Source of the DNA: Candidatus Marispirochaeta associata
GTDB taxonomy: Bacteria > Spirochaetota > Spirochaetia > JC444 > Marispirochaetaceae
DNA length: 64,000 nucleotides
Assembly: GCA_001749745.1 (NCBI GenBank)
Contig: JWTM01000424.1
Span: forward strand, 744,001 to 808,000
Direction of reading: 5' to 3'
Positions 103-7,090 of this stretch are shown piece after piece (the stretch's first letter is position 1; each line of letters opens with the position of its first letter). The notes below the pieces were generated by a model. That model saw only the letters and a list, made by a program, of their open reading frames with translations, was not told where the DNA came from and did not search any database. A program made the translations under genes and the position numbers.

Positions 103-1446
103 ATGCAGCATCTCAAGCCTGTCTATCATCTCCGGCCCGGGGTTAACTGGATCAACGATCCCAATGCCCCGGTCTACTGGCGCGGGGAGTATCACCTCTT
201 TTTTCAGTACAACCCCAACGAGGCCCGCTGGGGTAGCATCCATTGGGGACATGCAGTCAGCGAGGACCTGCTCCGTTGGCGTTTCCTTAGCCCGGCTCTT
301 TCGCCCGGGCCGGAGGAGTATGACCGGGAGGGGATATTCTCCGGGGGAGGAGTGGTGCATGATGACCATCTCTACCTCTACTACACCGGTGCCGAGCCGC
401 AGAGTCAGTGTCTGGCCGTCTCCGATGCGGCCGGCGGATTCAAGAAGCATCCCCTCAATCCGCTGATTCCGGCGCCGCCTCCCGCTTACCCGACCGGAGA
501 TTTTCGCGATCCCTTCGTCTGGAAGAGCGGCGACGAGTACCGGATGATCGTAGCCGCGGGCTATGGGGGGCGGGGGATAATCTTTCGCTACGTCTCGCAG
601 GATCTGATCTCCTGGCGCTATGAGGGGGAGTTTTTCGCCGAGGAGCTTCGCCCCGGCGTCCCCGCTTTCGAGTGTCCCCTCTATTTTACGCTGGCGGGCC
701 GGGAGGTGCTGGTTATCTCTCCCTATGCGAGCCCCTTCTATCTAATCGGCCGCACCGAGGATACACGCTTTATTCCCGAAGTCCGGGGAATCTTCGATGC
801 AAATCCAGGCTGGTATGCGCCCAACACCCTGCAAACACCCGACGGGAGGCGGATCATCTTCGCCTGGTTGCAGGAGGAACGGTCTGAGGCGGACCAGCTA
901 GCCGACGGTTGGAGCGGGGCTTTCGCCCTTCCCCGGGAGATTCGGCTGGAAGCGGACGGCGGAATACGCCAGGCGCCGCTGCGGGAGTTAACCGAGCTCC
1001 GTACCGCCAGCCGCAGGCTGAGTCTAGAATCTGCCGACGGCCGCTTCATTTTGGGCGATCTACCCTGGTCTGCCGAACTGGAGTTCACTCTTCCCCGTCC
1101 GGCCTCAGGAAGCTGGGAGTTGCGACTGCGGGAGAATGCGATCGGGGATTCATACTACTCGGTAGAAATAGATCGGGATGAGATTGTGTTGACCGATATG
1201 CTCAACGCTCCCGGCGGGGCGACGCTTGAGAAACGCGCGCCGTTGCCGCAGAACGGCGAGGTACTCGAGATTCGGCTCTTCCTGGACGCTTCGATTATAG
1301 AGCTGTTTATCAATCGGCAAACGGCGCTCTCTTCTCGGCTCTATCCGCCCCACCCCGAGCAGCGGGGAGCGGCATTGATTCCCCCCACGCAGCGTGCGCG
1401 CAAGCCGGAAGTTCTCCTCCATACCCTGGACGGGGTACGTATTTAG
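103..1446 (+). CDS. GH32 beta-fructofuranosidase (sucrose/sucrose-6-phosphate hydrolase family)
   Basis: 447 aa, cytoplasmic (no signal peptide). It hydrolyses terminal beta-fructosyl bonds. The three GH32 landmarks are visible: WINDPN at residues 16-21 with the nucleophile Asp19, FRDP at 134-137 (transition-state stabiliser), and FEC at 189-191 with the acid/base Glu190. An N-terminal five-bladed propeller is followed from about residue 315 by the usual C-terminal beta-sandwich. The gene follows an ABC sugar permease tail by 10 bases, which suggests hydrolysis of an imported, non-phosphorylated fructoside rather than of a PTS product. The exact substrate (sucrose, fructo-oligosaccharide) cannot be told from sequence. 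Its stop overlaps the convergent glycosyltransferase by 4 bases. Confidence 0.9.
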   Translation: MQHLKPVYHLRPGVNWINDPNAPVYWRGEYHLFFQYNPNEARWGSIHWGHAVSEDLLRWRFLSPALSPGPEEYDREGIFSGGGVVHDDHLYLYYTGAEPQSQCLAVSDAAGGFKKHPLNPLIPAPPPAYPTGDFRDPFVWKSGDEYRMIVAAGYGGRGIIFRYVSQDLISWRYEGEFFAEELRPGVPAFECPLYFTLAGREVLVISPYASPFYLIGRTEDTRFIPEVRGIFDANPGWYAPNTLQTPDGRRIIFAWLQEERSEADQLADGWSGAFALPREIRLEADGGIRQAPLRELTELRTASRRLSLESADGRFILGDLPWSAELEFTLPRPASGSWELRLRENAIGDSYYSVEIDRDEIVLTDMLNAPGGATLEKRAPLPQNGEVLEIRLFLDASIIELFINRQTALSSRLYPPHPEQRGAALIPPTQRARKPEVLLHTLDGVRI

Positions 1447-2696
1447 GCCCCGAAGAAGGTTTTCATCAGAAAGATCATGGCCTCTTCTACCATCTCATAG
1501 GAGTAGTACTGTTGGGCGATCCGGTAGTTCGTCTCGGCCATGGACTTCATCCGCTCCGGATCGTCCAGCACCTGCCGGGTGAACTCGACGATCTCATCCG
1601 AGAGGAACTCGTCCATCTCGATCACCTGGAAGCCCTTCGGCTTGATGTCGTGGGAATAGATCGAGTAGTTGTTGACCATGATCGGCCGCTTGAAGTAGAC
1701 CGCTTCCAAGAAGGCGTTGCCGAAGCCCTCGAAGAGCGAGGGATAGGTGACCAGATCCGCATGGGGATAGACGTCCTGTAGGGTGTAGGTCTTGCGTCCG
1801 TCGGCGGTGTACTCACGGGTCTCCCGGATAATATCGTCCACGAAAATGGCCCGGATCTTCATCAAGTCGGCATAGTCGTGTACCCGCTTCTGATACTCGT
1901 AGCCCTCGTCTCCAGAAGCGTGGGAGATTACCAGCGCCGCCTTGCGTTCCAGTCGAGCGACAAGCTCGATAGCATGTTCGATTCCCTTGCGCTGCACGAC
2001 CCGGGTCGGCTGCAGGATCAGGAGTTCGTCGTCGTCGATCTTGAAGGCGGAGCGAACGTCCCGGTTCCAGTCGTCGATGCCGGGAGGGGGAGTGGCGTAG
2101 TCCATCACGTTCGGAATCAGGGTCGCGTTGATGCCGGTCCGGAGCGCCAGCTGGTTCTGGGCCGACGAGTTGATAACCACATGCTGGATATTCTTTAGAT
2201 GGGGCGGATAGCAGGAGTTGAAGTAGTCCCAGACGCAGTTGCGCAGGAAGCGTTTCCGTTCCCAGAAGAAGTCGTGGTGGTGGGCGATGGTAGGGATTCC
2301 ACTCTCGGCGATTACCTCGGTCAGGGCCATCGCCAAGGGTACGTTCAGGGGAATGGTCAGGGTATTCTCCGGAACCAGTACGTCTAGTGAGAACTTCTCG
2401 ATGAAGATGTAAAGCTCCTCCTTCAGGCGTTCCCGATAGAGGTGGAGTTTCTTGGTTAATTTCGGCGGCCGAAACTGGTTATTGAAGCAGCCGTCGTAGA
2501 GTTCCTTGATCTCGTCGGTTTGAAAATGGGCCTCCGGCGCAATGAAGGAGACCTTCGGATCGGTATCGAGCTCTCCGGCCATGTAGTAACAGCTGTGCCC
2601 CAATCGTTCCAGGATGTAGGCCCATTTCTTGGTCTCCAGGGAAACGCCGTCGGTTCCGGATATCCTGAACGAGATAAAGCCGATGTTTTTACCCAT
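1443..2696 (-). CDS. GT4 glycosyltransferase, probable mannosylglucosylglycerate synthase
   Basis: 417 aa retaining glycosyltransferase of the GT-B fold. The N-terminus (GFISFRISGTDGVSLETKKW) carries the acceptor-side glycine loop. The C-terminal half has a QPTRVVQRKGIEHAIELV segment at about 229-246 and the E-x7-E pair Glu323/Glu331 in FEGFGNAFLE, both used for nucleotide-sugar binding in GT4. A conserved HHHDFFWER block sits at 139-147. The overall pattern resembles the mannosylglucosylglycerate synthases that add mannose to glucosylglycerate to make an osmolyte. That subfamily call is from memory of the family and is less certain than GT4 itself. It is downstream of the OmpA-like gene (6-base gap) on the same strand. 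Confidence 0.68.
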   Translation of the reverse strand: MGKNIGFISFRISGTDGVSLETKKWAYILERLGHSCYYMAGELDTDPKVSFIAPEAHFQTDEIKELYDGCFNNQFRPPKLTKKLHLYRERLKEELYIFIEKFSLDVLVPENTLTIPLNVPLAMALTEVIAESGIPTIAHHHDFFWERKRFLRNCVWDYFNSCYPPHLKNIQHVVINSSAQNQLALRTGINATLIPNVMDYATPPPGIDDWNRDVRSAFKIDDDELLILQPTRVVQRKGIEHAIELVARLERKAALVISHASGDEGYEYQKRVHDYADLMKIRAIFVDDIIRETREYTADGRKTYTLQDVYPHADLVTYPSLFEGFGNAFLEAVYFKRPIMVNNYSIYSHDIKPKGFQVIEMDEFLSDEIVEFTRQVLDDPERMKSMAETNYRIAQQYYSYEMVEEAMIFLMKTFFGA

Positions 2697-2702
2697 ACTG
2701 AA

Positions 2703-3629
2703 CTACTCTCCCTCTACGATAATCTCTACCCGGCGGTTGAGGTACTGATCCTTCTCCTCCAGGGTTATCGGCTCTTCGGCGCCCAGCCCACGGCTGTTGT
2801 CGATCCGGAAGCCGTTGCTCCTCAAGAGCGTCGCCGCGGCCGCGGCCCGTTCCTCCGAGAGTTCCCGCCGGCCCTCCTCGGTGCCTTTGACAGCGCAGTG
2901 ACCGCGCACGGTGATGCGGATATCCGGGTAATCTCGAATATCAGCCGCCAATTGTTCGATCACCTCCCTGGCCCGGTCGGTCAGGGCGGAACTGTCGGGA
3001 TTGAAGTAGATCGTGCGCCGAATAGGCTCGCTCAGAACCGCCGCTGGTTCGGGTTCAGGTTCGGGTGCCGGCAGTTCTTCAACAACCTCGGCCGGCTCCG
3101 ACTCCGGCTCAGCGATAGGCTCGCTCTCGCTCCGCTCCTCGATAGGCGCGTCGACAGTAGAGACGGCATCCGTCCTTGTTTCCGATCGGCTCGGAAGGGG
3201 ATCAGGAGCGGAAGCTGTTGCAGGGCGTAGCAAGAAGAGTGAGAGAAGCCCCAGCAGCAGGATGATCAGCGCCCCGAGAAGCCACCACCAGATTCGACCG
3301 CCCCCGGGGAGTCTAAAGCGGTCGGCCGCGATTCTCCGACGGCCGAGACTCAGCTCGATGTCGACCGATCGCGGACCGGATTTCCGGCTCGTAAGCTGGA
3401 TCTGCGGTTCTCCGGCCTTACCCGAGGGGAGAGGGCTGACTGTGTACTGTTTGAGTAGAATCTCGCGCCCGTCCCGATCCTTACGATAGATACTTACGAT
3501 AGCGGTGCGCTGTCCGTCCTTCAAAGTGGTCAGGTTAAGGCTGCGCTTCTGATCCTTGTCTAGATCGAAGAAGGGGACAAGACTTTTATTTTCTATTCGC
3601 ACATAGAGTTGTCGATCCACACCCTTCAT
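2703..3629 (-). CDS. Membrane-anchored OmpA-domain protein with Hsp70 substrate-binding-like N-terminus
   Basis: The start chosen at 3629 gives 308 aa. Open frame continues upstream to 3851, but those residues look non-coding. Three parts are visible. Residues 10-100 resemble the beta-sandwich substrate-binding domain of DnaK: an N-K-S-L-x-P opening, a D-G-Q-x3-V-x-I-Y strand (38-48), and a P-x-G...P-Q-I segment (68-77). Residues 113-134 form one transmembrane helix. A Pro/Glu-rich linker (140-200) then leads to an OmpA-type peptidoglycan-binding domain (205-308) with the NRRVEI signature at 298-303. The likely topology is a cytoplasmic N-domain and a periplasmic OmpA domain. There is no ATPase domain. 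The SBD likeness is by eye and tentative; the OmpA domain is firm. Confidence 0.8.
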   Translation of the reverse strand: MKGVDRQLYVRIENKSLVPFFDLDKDQKRSLNLTTLKDGQRTAIVSIYRKDRDGREILLKQYTVSPLPSGKAGEPQIQLTSRKSGPRSVDIELSLGRRRIAADRFRLPGGGRIWWWLLGALIILLLGLLSLFLLRPATASAPDPLPSRSETRTDAVSTVDAPIEERSESEPIAEPESEPAEVVEELPAPEPEPEPAAVLSEPIRRTIYFNPDSSALTDRAREVIEQLAADIRDYPDIRITVRGHCAVKGTEEGRRELSEERAAAAATLLRSNGFRIDNSRGLGAEEPITLEEKDQYLNRRVEIIVEGE

Positions 3630-3843: not shown

Positions 3844-5598
3844 TTGATCATCGATCAAGAGGGGGAGATTCTCTTCTTCAACGAGATCCTCCTGACTATG
3901 CTCGGCTGGCGCAGTATGGATATCTTTACCCGGAGGGAGGAGTTCCTCGCCTTTTTGAAAATCGATCCCGGGGAAGAGACCAAGAAAGAGATCGCTATTC
4001 CCGGGGCCGACGGCAAGGAGTTCCTCTACAGCTTGAGCTCCTTTACCATACAGGCCCAGGAAGGCGCCTATACCCTGGTCAGTCTGGTTCCCAAAGCTGA
4101 GGCCACAAGTGAGGATTCCGGCGGCTACAAGGAGCTTTACCACAGCCTTTTTACCAATCTGAGCGAGGCCTTCTTCACGGCCGACTTCTCAGGAAGGATC
4201 CTTTCCTGTAACCCCAGTTGTCTGCATATGCTGGGCTATGAAGAGGGGGAGTTTCCCCGCAGTGTGGACGAGCTCTACGCAAGCCCTGAGGATCTGGACG
4301 AGAAGATCGACTGCCTGCAGAAGGACGAGGTTTGCCGAGATCAGGAGTTGATCGTCAACGGCGCCATGGGAATTCGCTGCCGGGTAATGGATACCTCCTG
4401 GGTTAACCGCGATGGGGACGGCCGGATTATCGGTTATACCACTCACCTGAAGGATGTAACCTACATCAAGAATATCGAATCCAGGCTGATGCTCTCCGAG
4501 AAGAACTTTACTACCCTCTTCGATACTATCCTCTCGTCGATCATCATCGTCGATCCCCTGGGGATGATCCTCAATATGAATTCCGCCGCGGAGAAGGCTT
4601 ACGGCTATACCTGGGACGAGATATTCGGGGAGCACTATGATTCGGTCTTCAGGGCCAGCAAGGAGTCGCCCTCCTTTACCAAACTGGTGGCGCTGATCGA
4701 ACGCAACGAAGGCCACTATATCGACCGGGAAGCCACCCGAAAGTGTAAGGACGGCGAGATCAAATACACCTTCGCCTCCTACTCGGCGGTAACCGACTCA
4801 TCCGGGGAGGAGGTCGCCTATTCTATAGTGGAGAAGGATCTGACCGAGCGGATGAATCTGGAGACGAAGCTGAAGGAGACGATCTCCCGGCTCAAGAAGA
4901 CTCAGTCGGCGGCCATCATGGGATTCGCCAAGCTGACCGAGTTCCGCGACAAGAGTACCGGCAAGCACCTGGAGCGTATCCGTGAGTTTACCCGTATTTT
5001 GGCCCTTAAATTGCGGGAACTGCCCCAGTACAGGGATTATATCACCGACGAGTATCTGGACGATCTCTATATCTCCGCCATCCTTCACGATGTGGGTAAG
5101 GTCGGCATCGAGGATCAGATCCTCCTTAAACCCGGTCCTCTCTCGACCGACGAGTTCGACAAGATCAAGGAGCATGTGGTGCTGGGGGGTGAGGCCCTGG
5201 GGAATGTGGACAAGACCATGCAGCAGGAGTCCTTTCTGACTATCGGAAAGGAGATCGCCTATTATCACCACGAACGCTGGGACGGGAAGGGCTATCCCGA
5301 AGGCCGCAAAGGGCAGGAGATTCCCCTCTCCGCCCGAATCGTGGCTATTGCCGACGTCTACGATGCGTTGACCAGTCTGCGCCCCTACAAGCAGGCCTTG
5401 AGCCACGAGGAGGCCCTGGAGATGATCAGCGCCGAGCGAGGGAAGCACTTCGATCCTCAGATCGTCGATATCTTCGTCGAAAACCAGGAGGTTTTTCAGC
5501 GTATCAAGCGCTTTGTAGAGTTCGAGGATAACCCCGAAACAATTTTTGATCTGCTGAGCGAGCGGCCTCCGTCCGCCGAACGTCAAGGCTCCGCTTGA
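3844..5598 (+). CDS. PAS-PAS-PAS-HD-GYP c-di-GMP phosphodiesterase-like protein
   Basis: About 584 aa with three PAS sensor domains (about 1-95, 98-215 and 219-335), a short coiled coil, and a C-terminal HD-GYP domain. The metal-binding HDVGK (about 415-419) and the family-defining HHERWDGKGYP (about 475-485) are intact, so cyclic-di-GMP hydrolysis is likely. There are no transmembrane helices, so it is a soluble sensor. The start is uncertain: TTG at 3844 is the first conventional start, but the frame stays open back to 3766 and the residues just upstream (KIIEEISDG) look like the natural beginning of the first PAS domain. The divergent OmpA gene starts at 3629. A 7-bp hairpin (5589-5608) sits over the stop without a T-run. 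Confidence 0.88.
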   Translation: MIIDQEGEILFFNEILLTMLGWRSMDIFTRREEFLAFLKIDPGEETKKEIAIPGADGKEFLYSLSSFTIQAQEGAYTLVSLVPKAEATSEDSGGYKELYHSLFTNLSEAFFTADFSGRILSCNPSCLHMLGYEEGEFPRSVDELYASPEDLDEKIDCLQKDEVCRDQELIVNGAMGIRCRVMDTSWVNRDGDGRIIGYTTHLKDVTYIKNIESRLMLSEKNFTTLFDTILSSIIIVDPLGMILNMNSAAEKAYGYTWDEIFGEHYDSVFRASKESPSFTKLVALIERNEGHYIDREATRKCKDGEIKYTFASYSAVTDSSGEEVAYSIVEKDLTERMNLETKLKETISRLKKTQSAAIMGFAKLTEFRDKSTGKHLERIREFTRILALKLRELPQYRDYITDEYLDDLYISAILHDVGKVGIEDQILLKPGPLSTDEFDKIKEHVVLGGEALGNVDKTMQQESFLTIGKEIAYYHHERWDGKGYPEGRKGQEIPLSARIVAIADVYDALTSLRPYKQALSHEEALEMISAERGKHFDPQIVDIFVENQEVFQRIKRFVEFEDNPETIFDLLSERPPSAERQGSA

Positions 5599-5656: not shown

Positions 5657-7090
5657 ATGCAAGCTAAACGGAAGCCGTTCTTTCAACTCCTCGAGGAGCG
5701 AATCGCGCAATCCCAATCCCTGCTCTGCATCGGCCTCGATCCGCGGGTGGCACCGGGGGAAGGGGCGGTCGATACGATTCTCGCGCAAAATCGTACGCTG
5801 ATCGAAGCGACCGCCGAATATGCGGCCTGCTATAAACCCAATATCGCCTTCTACGAGGCCCACGGACCGGCCGGTCTGGAGGCTCTCATCCAAACCCTCG
5901 AGATGATCCCCGAGGAGATCCCGGTTCTGCTGGATGCTAAGCGGGGAGATATCGGCGCCACCGCCGAGGCCTACGCCTCCCTCGTTTTCGATCGTCTGGG
6001 CGCGGATGCGGTCACCTTGAGTCCCTACATGGGGAAGAGTTCGGCCGATCCCTTCCTGAAATATAAAGATAAGGGCTTCTTTTTTCTCTGTCGCACCTCG
6101 AATCCCGGGGCGGAGCGGATTCAGGAGTTGACCGTCGGGTCAGCCGGCGGAGATCCTCTCTATATCCGGATAGCCTCGGAAGTGGACAGCTGGTCGGAGA
6201 CCGCCGGACTGGTGGTGGCCGGGAATGATCTCCGCAGCCTGGCCGCGGTCCGTCGCCGGTTTCCCAAGCTCTGGATTCTCGCCCCCGGCATCGGCGCCCA
6301 GGGCGGATCTGCGGAGGAGGCGGTTGCAGCCGGAGTCGGCGACGACGGTTCCCGGCTTCTGCCGGTTGTAGCCCGGGCGATCAGCGGCGCCGAGGATCCT
6401 GCCTTAGCGGCGAAGGAGTTTCGGGATCAGATCAATCGAGCCCGGGAGTCCGCCCTGAAGGCCAGTATCGGGTCCAAGCTGGCCGGTAAACCGCGGGATT
6501 ACCGCAAGGAAGAGATCTTTCAGGGGCTGGTGGACACCGGCTGTTTCCGCCTGGGGAACTTCACCCTGAAGTCGGGTCTCGTCTCGCCCTTCTACCTCGA
6601 TCTGCGGCGAATCTCCTCCTCTCCCGGTTTGATGCGCCTGGTTGCCAGGGCTTATGCTTCAATACTCCCGGCCGGGAAGATCGACCGCCTGGCGGGCATC
6701 CCCGTAGCGGCGGTGCCCTTTTCGACCGCCCTCTCCCTGGAGACCGACATTCCGATGATCTATCCCCGGATGAACTCTAAGGGCCACGGCACGGGGAACC
6801 GCATCGAGGGGGATTACGCCCCGGGCGAGCGGGTGGTTCTGGTGGATGATCTGATCACCACCGGCAAGAGTAAGATCGAAGCGGCGGAAATCCTCAGGGC
6901 GGAGGAGCTCAAGGTCACCGAACTGGTAGTTCTCCTGGAGCGGGGAACCCAGGGGCGGCTCGATATGGAGCGCCACGGAATCGACCTGTATGCCTACGCC
7001 CAGGCCGAGGAGCTCTTCGGCTATCTTCTCGACCGGGGAATCATCAATCAGGCCAAACACCAGGAACTGATTGATTTTATAAGCGATTAG
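5657..7090 (+). CDS. pyrFE: Bifunctional OMP decarboxylase / orotate phosphoribosyltransferase
   Basis: 477 aa fusion catalysing the last two steps of UMP synthesis. The N-terminal half (1 to about 265) is a PyrF type 2 decarboxylase with LLDAKRGDIG at about 91-100, which carries the catalytic Asp-Lys-Asp network. The C-terminal half (about 280-477) is PyrE, with the PRPP-binding loop VVLVDDLITTGKS at about 394-406. The order is decarboxylase first, the reverse of animal UMP synthase. An AAGGA Shine-Dalgarno lies 9 bases before ATG 5657. The mechanosensitive channel follows after 12 bases, so they may be co-transcribed. Both active sites look complete. Confidence 0.93.
   Translation: MQAKRKPFFQLLEERIAQSQSLLCIGLDPRVAPGEGAVDTILAQNRTLIEATAEYAACYKPNIAFYEAHGPAGLEALIQTLEMIPEEIPVLLDAKRGDIGATAEAYASLVFDRLGADAVTLSPYMGKSSADPFLKYKDKGFFFLCRTSNPGAERIQELTVGSAGGDPLYIRIASEVDSWSETAGLVVAGNDLRSLAAVRRRFPKLWILAPGIGAQGGSAEEAVAAGVGDDGSRLLPVVARAISGAEDPALAAKEFRDQINRARESALKASIGSKLAGKPRDYRKEEIFQGLVDTGCFRLGNFTLKSGLVSPFYLDLRRISSSPGLMRLVARAYASILPAGKIDRLAGIPVAAVPFSTALSLETDIPMIYPRMNSKGHGTGNRIEGDYAPGERVVLVDDLITTGKSKIEAAEILRAEELKVTELVVLLERGTQGRLDMERHGIDLYAYAQAEELFGYLLDRGIINQAKHQELIDFISD

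Follow-up and report, generated by a model that had tools for sequence, protein, structure and literature searches.

The window, a 64,000-nucleotide stretch of DNA from Candidatus Marispirochaeta associata, contains a gene for an envelope protein whose N-terminal head is a motor-less copy of the peptide-binding domain of Hsp70. The protein is assembled from known domains in a new combination, in which an Hsp70-type substrate-binding domain (SBD) forms the head and is joined by one membrane helix and a Pro/Glu linker to an OmpA domain; we regard this fold and architecture as close to certain. The OmpA-type protein is a minority paralogue of a phylum-wide family in which the SBD is instead combined with a LysM domain (the LysM-type, or SBD-LysM family). 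The functional reading that we favour, with a rough probability of 0.55, is that the head would serve as a nucleotide-independent peptide-docking module tying a cytoplasmic partner to the cell wall. This reading is the best supported because the region of the peptide groove is conserved, the contacts with the ATPase domain are lost, the topology is predicted and an OmpA domain is present. Neither the SBD-OmpA nor the SBD-LysM form appears to have been described before; no description of such fusions, of BB0260 or of TP0042 was found in the non-subscription literature covered. Pfam labels the LysM-type head as HSP70, and databases may therefore already display the architecture unremarked.

The features of the locus, in window coordinates, are as follows.

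1443-2696, minus strand: GT4 glycosyltransferase gene, downstream, 6 bases after the SBD-OmpA stop codon
2703-3629, minus strand: SBD-OmpA coding sequence, 308 residues, running from an Hsp70-SBD-like head through one membrane helix and a Pro/Glu linker to an OmpA domain
2745-3008, minus strand: OmpA-like domain, residues 208-295 (Pfam PF00691, E=1.7e-13)
3021-3221, minus strand: Pro/Glu-rich spacer, residues ~137-203, seen in the sequence and predicted to be periplasmic
3222-3293, minus strand: single transmembrane helix, residues ~113-136, predicted N-in/C-out from hydropathy and K/R count
3309-3611, minus strand: SBD-like head, residues 7-107, eight strands in the fold of the Hsp70 substrate-binding beta-subdomain (AlphaFold2, Foldseek, and hhalign with shuffled controls)
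3495-3602, minus strand: groove-equivalent segment, residues 10-45, from column entropy in 14 OmpA-type relatives
3844-5598, plus strand: PAS-HD-GYP protein gene, divergent upstream neighbour

The initial annotation had placed an open frame at 2703-3629. The coordinates stand; the direction is that of the minus strand, from 3629 down to 2703, and the plus strand is interrupted by stops. The frame is a real gene, since close orthologues from the same genus and the same family share 34-49% identity with its product along almost its entire length. Translation could start at ATG 3629 or at GTG 3620, and the frame of the close orthologues opens with V-D-Q-K, which is of the GTG type.

The fold of the head was examined by structure prediction and by profile comparison. 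AlphaFold2 applied to residues 1-112 as a single sequence returned eight strands with a pLDDT of 83.8 and a pTM of 0.76. When this alignment-free model was compared with the PDB by Foldseek, the top 50 matches were all Hsp70 SBDs or two ciliary SBD-like chains (probability 1.00, E of 1.6e-3 to 2e-2, query TM of 0.50-0.70), and in a search of viral predicted structures with the head model the viral Hsp70s rank top. Prediction with 57 aligned LysM-type rows gave a pLDDT of 86.1 and a pTM of 0.77, with Foldseek matches at an E of 2.5e-5 and a TM of up to 0.80. Because MAFFT wrongly placed these C-terminal strands when the focal head was aligned with the LysM-type rows, the alignment-free model was run as an independent test. 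In hhalign comparisons the 14 OmpA-type relatives match the spirochaete DnaK SBDs at E=2.4e-7 and the SBD-LysM family at E=3.1e-12, against values of 0.05-0.7 for the reversed or shuffled negative controls.

The resemblance to Hsp70 might still be fortuitous, the head being a small beta-domain unrelated to it and carried by an ordinary OmpA-family protein. Residues 1-111 by themselves matched nothing in Pfam or NCBIfam, and phmmer with these residues against all PDB sequences retrieved almost exclusively Hsp70s at a weak best E of 0.005. Against a fortuitous origin stand the alignment-free structure prediction, the profile-profile scores with their negative controls, and relatives that grade into unambiguous HSP70 matches, and we consider it hardly credible. 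The head is silent in the family libraries yet has the SBD fold, and rejection on the libraries would have misled. The central claim of the initial annotation, a head resembling the DnaK substrate-binding beta-sandwich, is thus upheld, since the AlphaFold2 and Foldseek results agree with the controlled profile-profile comparison; neither an unrelated fold nor a lack of profile similarity to Hsp70 was observed. The Hsp70 landmarks that it had quoted are likewise found in the head, as N14-K-S-L-V-P19, D38-G-Q-R-T-A-I-V-S-I47 and P75-Q-I77; the second of these corresponds to D-N-Q-x-x-V-x-I of Hsp70. As had also been noted, the ATPase domain is absent: the 308-residue coding sequence begins at the SBD and Pfam finds no ATPase part.

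Comparison with the SBD beta-subdomain of Hsp70 (the C-terminal part of PF00012; 1dkx, 3h0x, 4po2) reveals a common eight-strand beta-sandwich, the shared landmarks T-T-x-x-D-x-Q and G-x-P-x-I, and hydrophobic groove positions that are mostly retained. The focal protein, in contrast to Hsp70, lacks the ATPase domain, the interdomain linker and the helical lid (SBD-alpha), and is fused to a membrane helix, which begins within ~6 residues of the SBD, and to a wall-type domain. The groove of DnaK, which we take to comprise I401, T403, M404, F426-A429, D431, Q433, V436, I438 and I472, aligns so that V10, I12 and E13 are equivalent to I401, T403 and M404, L33-T34-T35-L36 to F426-A429, and D38, Q40, A43 and V45 to D431, Q433, V436 and I438, the alignment being less certain for residues 10-24 than for 31-79. 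Across the 14 OmpA-type relatives the mean column entropy is 0.72 bits at the 12 groove positions, some of which also pack the core, versus 2.18 bits elsewhere in the head, and none of 20,000 random position sets of equal size was as low. I12, T34, Q40 and A43 are invariant in these relatives, the Gln also in the LysM-type. The C-terminal half of the OmpA-type head is poorly conserved.

The side that faces the ATPase domain in Hsp70 has drifted. In DnaK, K414 and D481 contact the ATPase domain (PMC4595643); the aligned positions of the focal head are occupied by Leu and Pro, and the N-T-T-I-P-T loop of DnaK is missing. A conserved groove combined with lost ATPase-domain contacts is the pattern expected where the peptide site is kept and nucleotide control is lost, although it speaks for this indirectly. 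The focal protein is not an Hsp70; it may act as the peptide-binding half of an Hsp70 does. Its ligand, if any, must differ from that of DnaK, because the arch residue M404 has become Glu and the deep-pocket residue V436 has become Ala.

These two substitutions count against peptide docking and would suit another reading, in which the head is a true descendant of the Hsp70 SBD that has lost peptide binding and serves an envelope protein purely for structure or oligomerisation. The poorly conserved C-terminal half points the same way, as do the ciliary matches. FAP363 and a second ciliary chain (6u42, 8glv) have, like the focal head, an SBD-like fold that lacks the ATPase domain and occurs outside a chaperone context, which indicates that the SBD fold can occur in a structural protein; unlike the focal protein, FAP363 is a eukaryotic microtubule inner protein with no membrane or wall link. 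The conserved groove residues could, moreover, be kept for folding. Against a purely structural role, conservation in the head is highest at the groove-equivalent positions, which include the polar invariants T34 and Q40, while the surface facing the ATPase domain has drifted. We hold the structural reading possible but doubtful, and retain peptide docking as the preferred one.

A single membrane helix and a Pro/Glu linker joining the head to the OmpA domain, as proposed in the initial annotation, are seen at residues ~113-136 and ~137-203. Exactly one hydrophobic helix is found in each of 13 OmpA-type relatives, and 10 of the 13 carry an excess of K/R on its N-terminal side, the remaining three being balanced; this supports an N-in orientation. 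One helix with a K/R excess before it would make the head cytoplasmic and the OmpA domain periplasmic, and we infer this topology for the focal protein from the sequence.

The C-terminal domain had been called peptidoglycan-binding. It is an OmpA domain, but of the non-canonical spirochaetal kind as judged by its motif, GHCA-x8-E-x2-LS-x2-RA (C-A-x8-E-x2-LS-x2-RA), in which Ala replaces the DAP-binding Asp of the canonical GHTD. The Asp-to-Ala change occurs in all full OmpA-type relatives read. The canonical DAP-binding motif is TD-x7-N-x2-LS-x2-RA; the spirochaetal protein Tp0624, with the same Asp-to-Ala change, failed to bind DAP, and the wall of its bacteria mostly contains ornithine (PMC5104382). 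The OmpA domain of Tp0624, from Treponema pallidum, resembles that of the focal protein in this substitution and in the replacement of the Asn; Tp0624 differs from the focal protein in its N-terminal domains and in having a signal peptide for export. We infer wall binding rather than read it from the motif, because the canonical Asp is lost as in Tp0624, and the loss weighs against the docking model. MotB/PomB and the long form of TssL share with the focal protein a short cytoplasmic part, one transmembrane helix and a periplasmic OmpA domain. MotB differs in having no SBD head and in its partners, the MotA channel subunits; no MotA-like channel gene lies beside the SBD-OmpA gene, and the MotB NCBIfam scores fall far below the cut-off. 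The focal protein is not MotB-like beyond the arrangement of helix and OmpA domain.

The homologue survey shows that the order of SBD, membrane helix and wall-type domain is conserved across relatives, and that the design is wider than the initial annotation could see. The source genome itself encodes a second member, P0002 (322 residues; L169:7625-8593, contig C394), in which one membrane helix and a Pro/Glu spacer connect an SBD to a LysM domain. The head of P0002 matches Pfam HSP70 at 1.3e-11 and NCBIfam DnaK at 8.8e-13, and its best PDB match is the Kar2/GRP78 SBD at 4.4e-11, which makes the SBD-LysM family an unambiguous intermediate. The two types share a head of the same family (hhalign E=3e-12), an N-in single transmembrane helix, a proline-rich spacer and a peptidoglycan-type C-terminal domain. 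The SBD-LysM type differs from the focal protein in carrying LysM rather than OmpA, in a long acidic cytoplasmic linker with Y-D-x-P-D-F-x-L, and in a fixed linkage to a flagellar transglycosylase. The focal protein fits a spirochaete family, defined here by an SBD head, one transmembrane helix and a LysM or OmpA domain. The OmpA-type stands nearer to the LysM-type than to DnaK, so that the simplest history would be that a DnaK SBD was captured once and the wall domain was later exchanged.

Relatives were found in 294 stretches of species-representative genomes, the best 80 of the 294 all being titled spirochaetes except one 'bacterium'. Within Spirochaetota, 214 of 393 genomes contain a profile match at E<=1e-12, the weakest of these matches being DnaK itself. 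The OmpA-type is rarer than the LysM-type and occurs in at least eight spirochaete families (f1, f22, f23, f25, f31, f35, f36 and f39, the last belonging to another class). An SBD-LysM-type member is present in a Treponema genome of T. pallidum size (L177; label putative, from genome size and gene order). T. pallidum TP0046-48 was dropped as a candidate locus; the gene in the L177 genome sits between an 814-residue neighbour and a transglycosylase-mnmG pair. Borrelia-like genomes (label putative on the same grounds) contain a divergent member; that of G021 (L178:6453-7736) adjoins the BB0259 homologue and retains a divergent SBD and the transmembrane helix, together with an acidic linker of great length. 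It has lost the LysM domain, which suggests that the head and the membrane anchor may be the essential part.

Several variants were also observed. Two genomes of family f7 (G009 and G034) contain two paralogues, a ~204-residue SBD frame beside the transglycosylase and an SBD-LysM gene elsewhere in the genome, and a 156-residue frame of G091 (L128, 1495-1962) consists of an SBD and a transmembrane helix with no OmpA domain. Frames of 733-743 residues in G346 and G367 were ruled out as a new architecture, being read-through of an upstream open frame. Just after the SBD, the cytoplasmic linker of the LysM-type (P0002 ~122-129) carries a conserved Y-[DE]-x-P-[DE]-F-x-[LFI], strict in 38 of 66 members; this could possibly be a pseudo-substrate or a partner motif. 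Mimicry of the FtsZ tail by Y-D-x-P-D-F-x-L looks weak when compared with 16 spirochaete FtsZ tails, which are of the DLGIPTxLR type.

Among the 55 loci that hold the gene after SBD-LysM, the next downstream gene is a lytic transglycosylase of the BB0259 type on the same strand in 48, with a median gap of 11 bases; the name of the enzyme, after Borrelia BB0259, comes from NF047373. In 36 of the 55 the SBD-LysM gene has a divergent TPR gene before it, and UppP and FtsK are frequent further on. Periplasmic flagella require BB0259 (PMC8517470). The LysM-type is absent from all 14 FliF-lacking genomes checked (twelve of family f8, together with G005 and G006). The link to FliF is not strict, as no member was detected in the FliF-positive genomes G008, G016, G022 and G294. 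In family f11 and in G289, FliF and the SBD-LysM gene are present and the BB0259-type transglycosylase was not detected; in family f11 (L179) the SBD-LysM gene adjoins FtsK.

No flagellar genes lie beside the SBD-OmpA gene at its loci, a point against the docking model. The GT4 gene is probably co-transcribed with it, and their adjacency is retained in two genomes of the same genus and one of another family. The divergent PAS-HD-GYP gene also adjoins the SBD-OmpA gene in f1 and f25 genomes, and a neighbourhood of PAS-HD-GYP, pyrF-pyrE, MscS, an Rrf2-type regulator and an RsmC-like methyltransferase, in some cases with GT4, is partly kept in same-family, f23 and f25 genomes. We also note that the GT4 protein (1443-2696) is mannosylglucosylglycerate-synthase-like at a score below the cut-off, that a GH32-family glycoside hydrolase gene (window 103-1446) is convergent with the GT4 gene with a four-base overlap, and that the pyrF-pyrE fusion gene (window 5657-7090) adjoins the gene of the MscS-type channel.

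The neighbourhoods also bear on a third possibility, that the protein is a membrane-bound helper of DnaK, holding unfolded segments at the membrane and passing them to DnaK or competing with it. The head does belong to the same domain family as DnaK and, by the predicted topology, lies in the same compartment. The neighbourhoods examined show no linkage of the SBD-OmpA gene to dnaK, dnaJ or grpE, the residues that would contact the ATPase domain are lost, the sister family follows flagella and wall enzymes, not chaperone genes, and the strict conservation of the groove argues for one or a few ligands. A helper role is accordingly improbable.

In the docking model, the focal protein would be a single-pass tether of the inner membrane. 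Its cytoplasmic head, a lid-less SBD beta-subdomain stripped of the ATPase domain and of the surface that contacts it, would use the retained groove region to dock, constitutively, a short stretch of extended peptide belonging to a partner in the cytoplasm or the membrane. Having no ATP cycle, the head would not actively release the docked peptide. The membrane helix and the ~65-residue Pro/Glu spacer would carry the OmpA-like domain into the periplasm, where it would hold the spirochaetal wall, probably of the ornithine type, and the docking would thereby position the partner at the wall. By analogy with the LysM paralogue, whose gene is coupled to that of the flagellar transglycosylase, the partner would more probably belong to a machine of envelope or flagellar assembly than be a misfolded client.

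A bolder extension, which we put forward tentatively and think less probable than not, is that an Hsp70 SBD became a nucleotide-independent transmembrane receptor coupling a specific cytoplasmic peptide signal to the wall. The LysM branch would recruit the flagellar lytic transglycosylase or gate it, confining the opening of the wall to places where a motor is being built, and the OmpA branch would do likewise for another envelope machine. The SBD-LysM family is probably more important than the focal gene, and it offers a concrete candidate for the means by which spirochaetes keep in check the lytic transglycosylase that makes way in the wall for periplasmic flagella. The function of Hsp70 is taught as inseparable from its ATP cycle. 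If the docking model is true, an ATPase-free, membrane-anchored SBD kept across much of the phylum would mean that the peptide-binding module lends itself to reuse as a transmembrane docking device.
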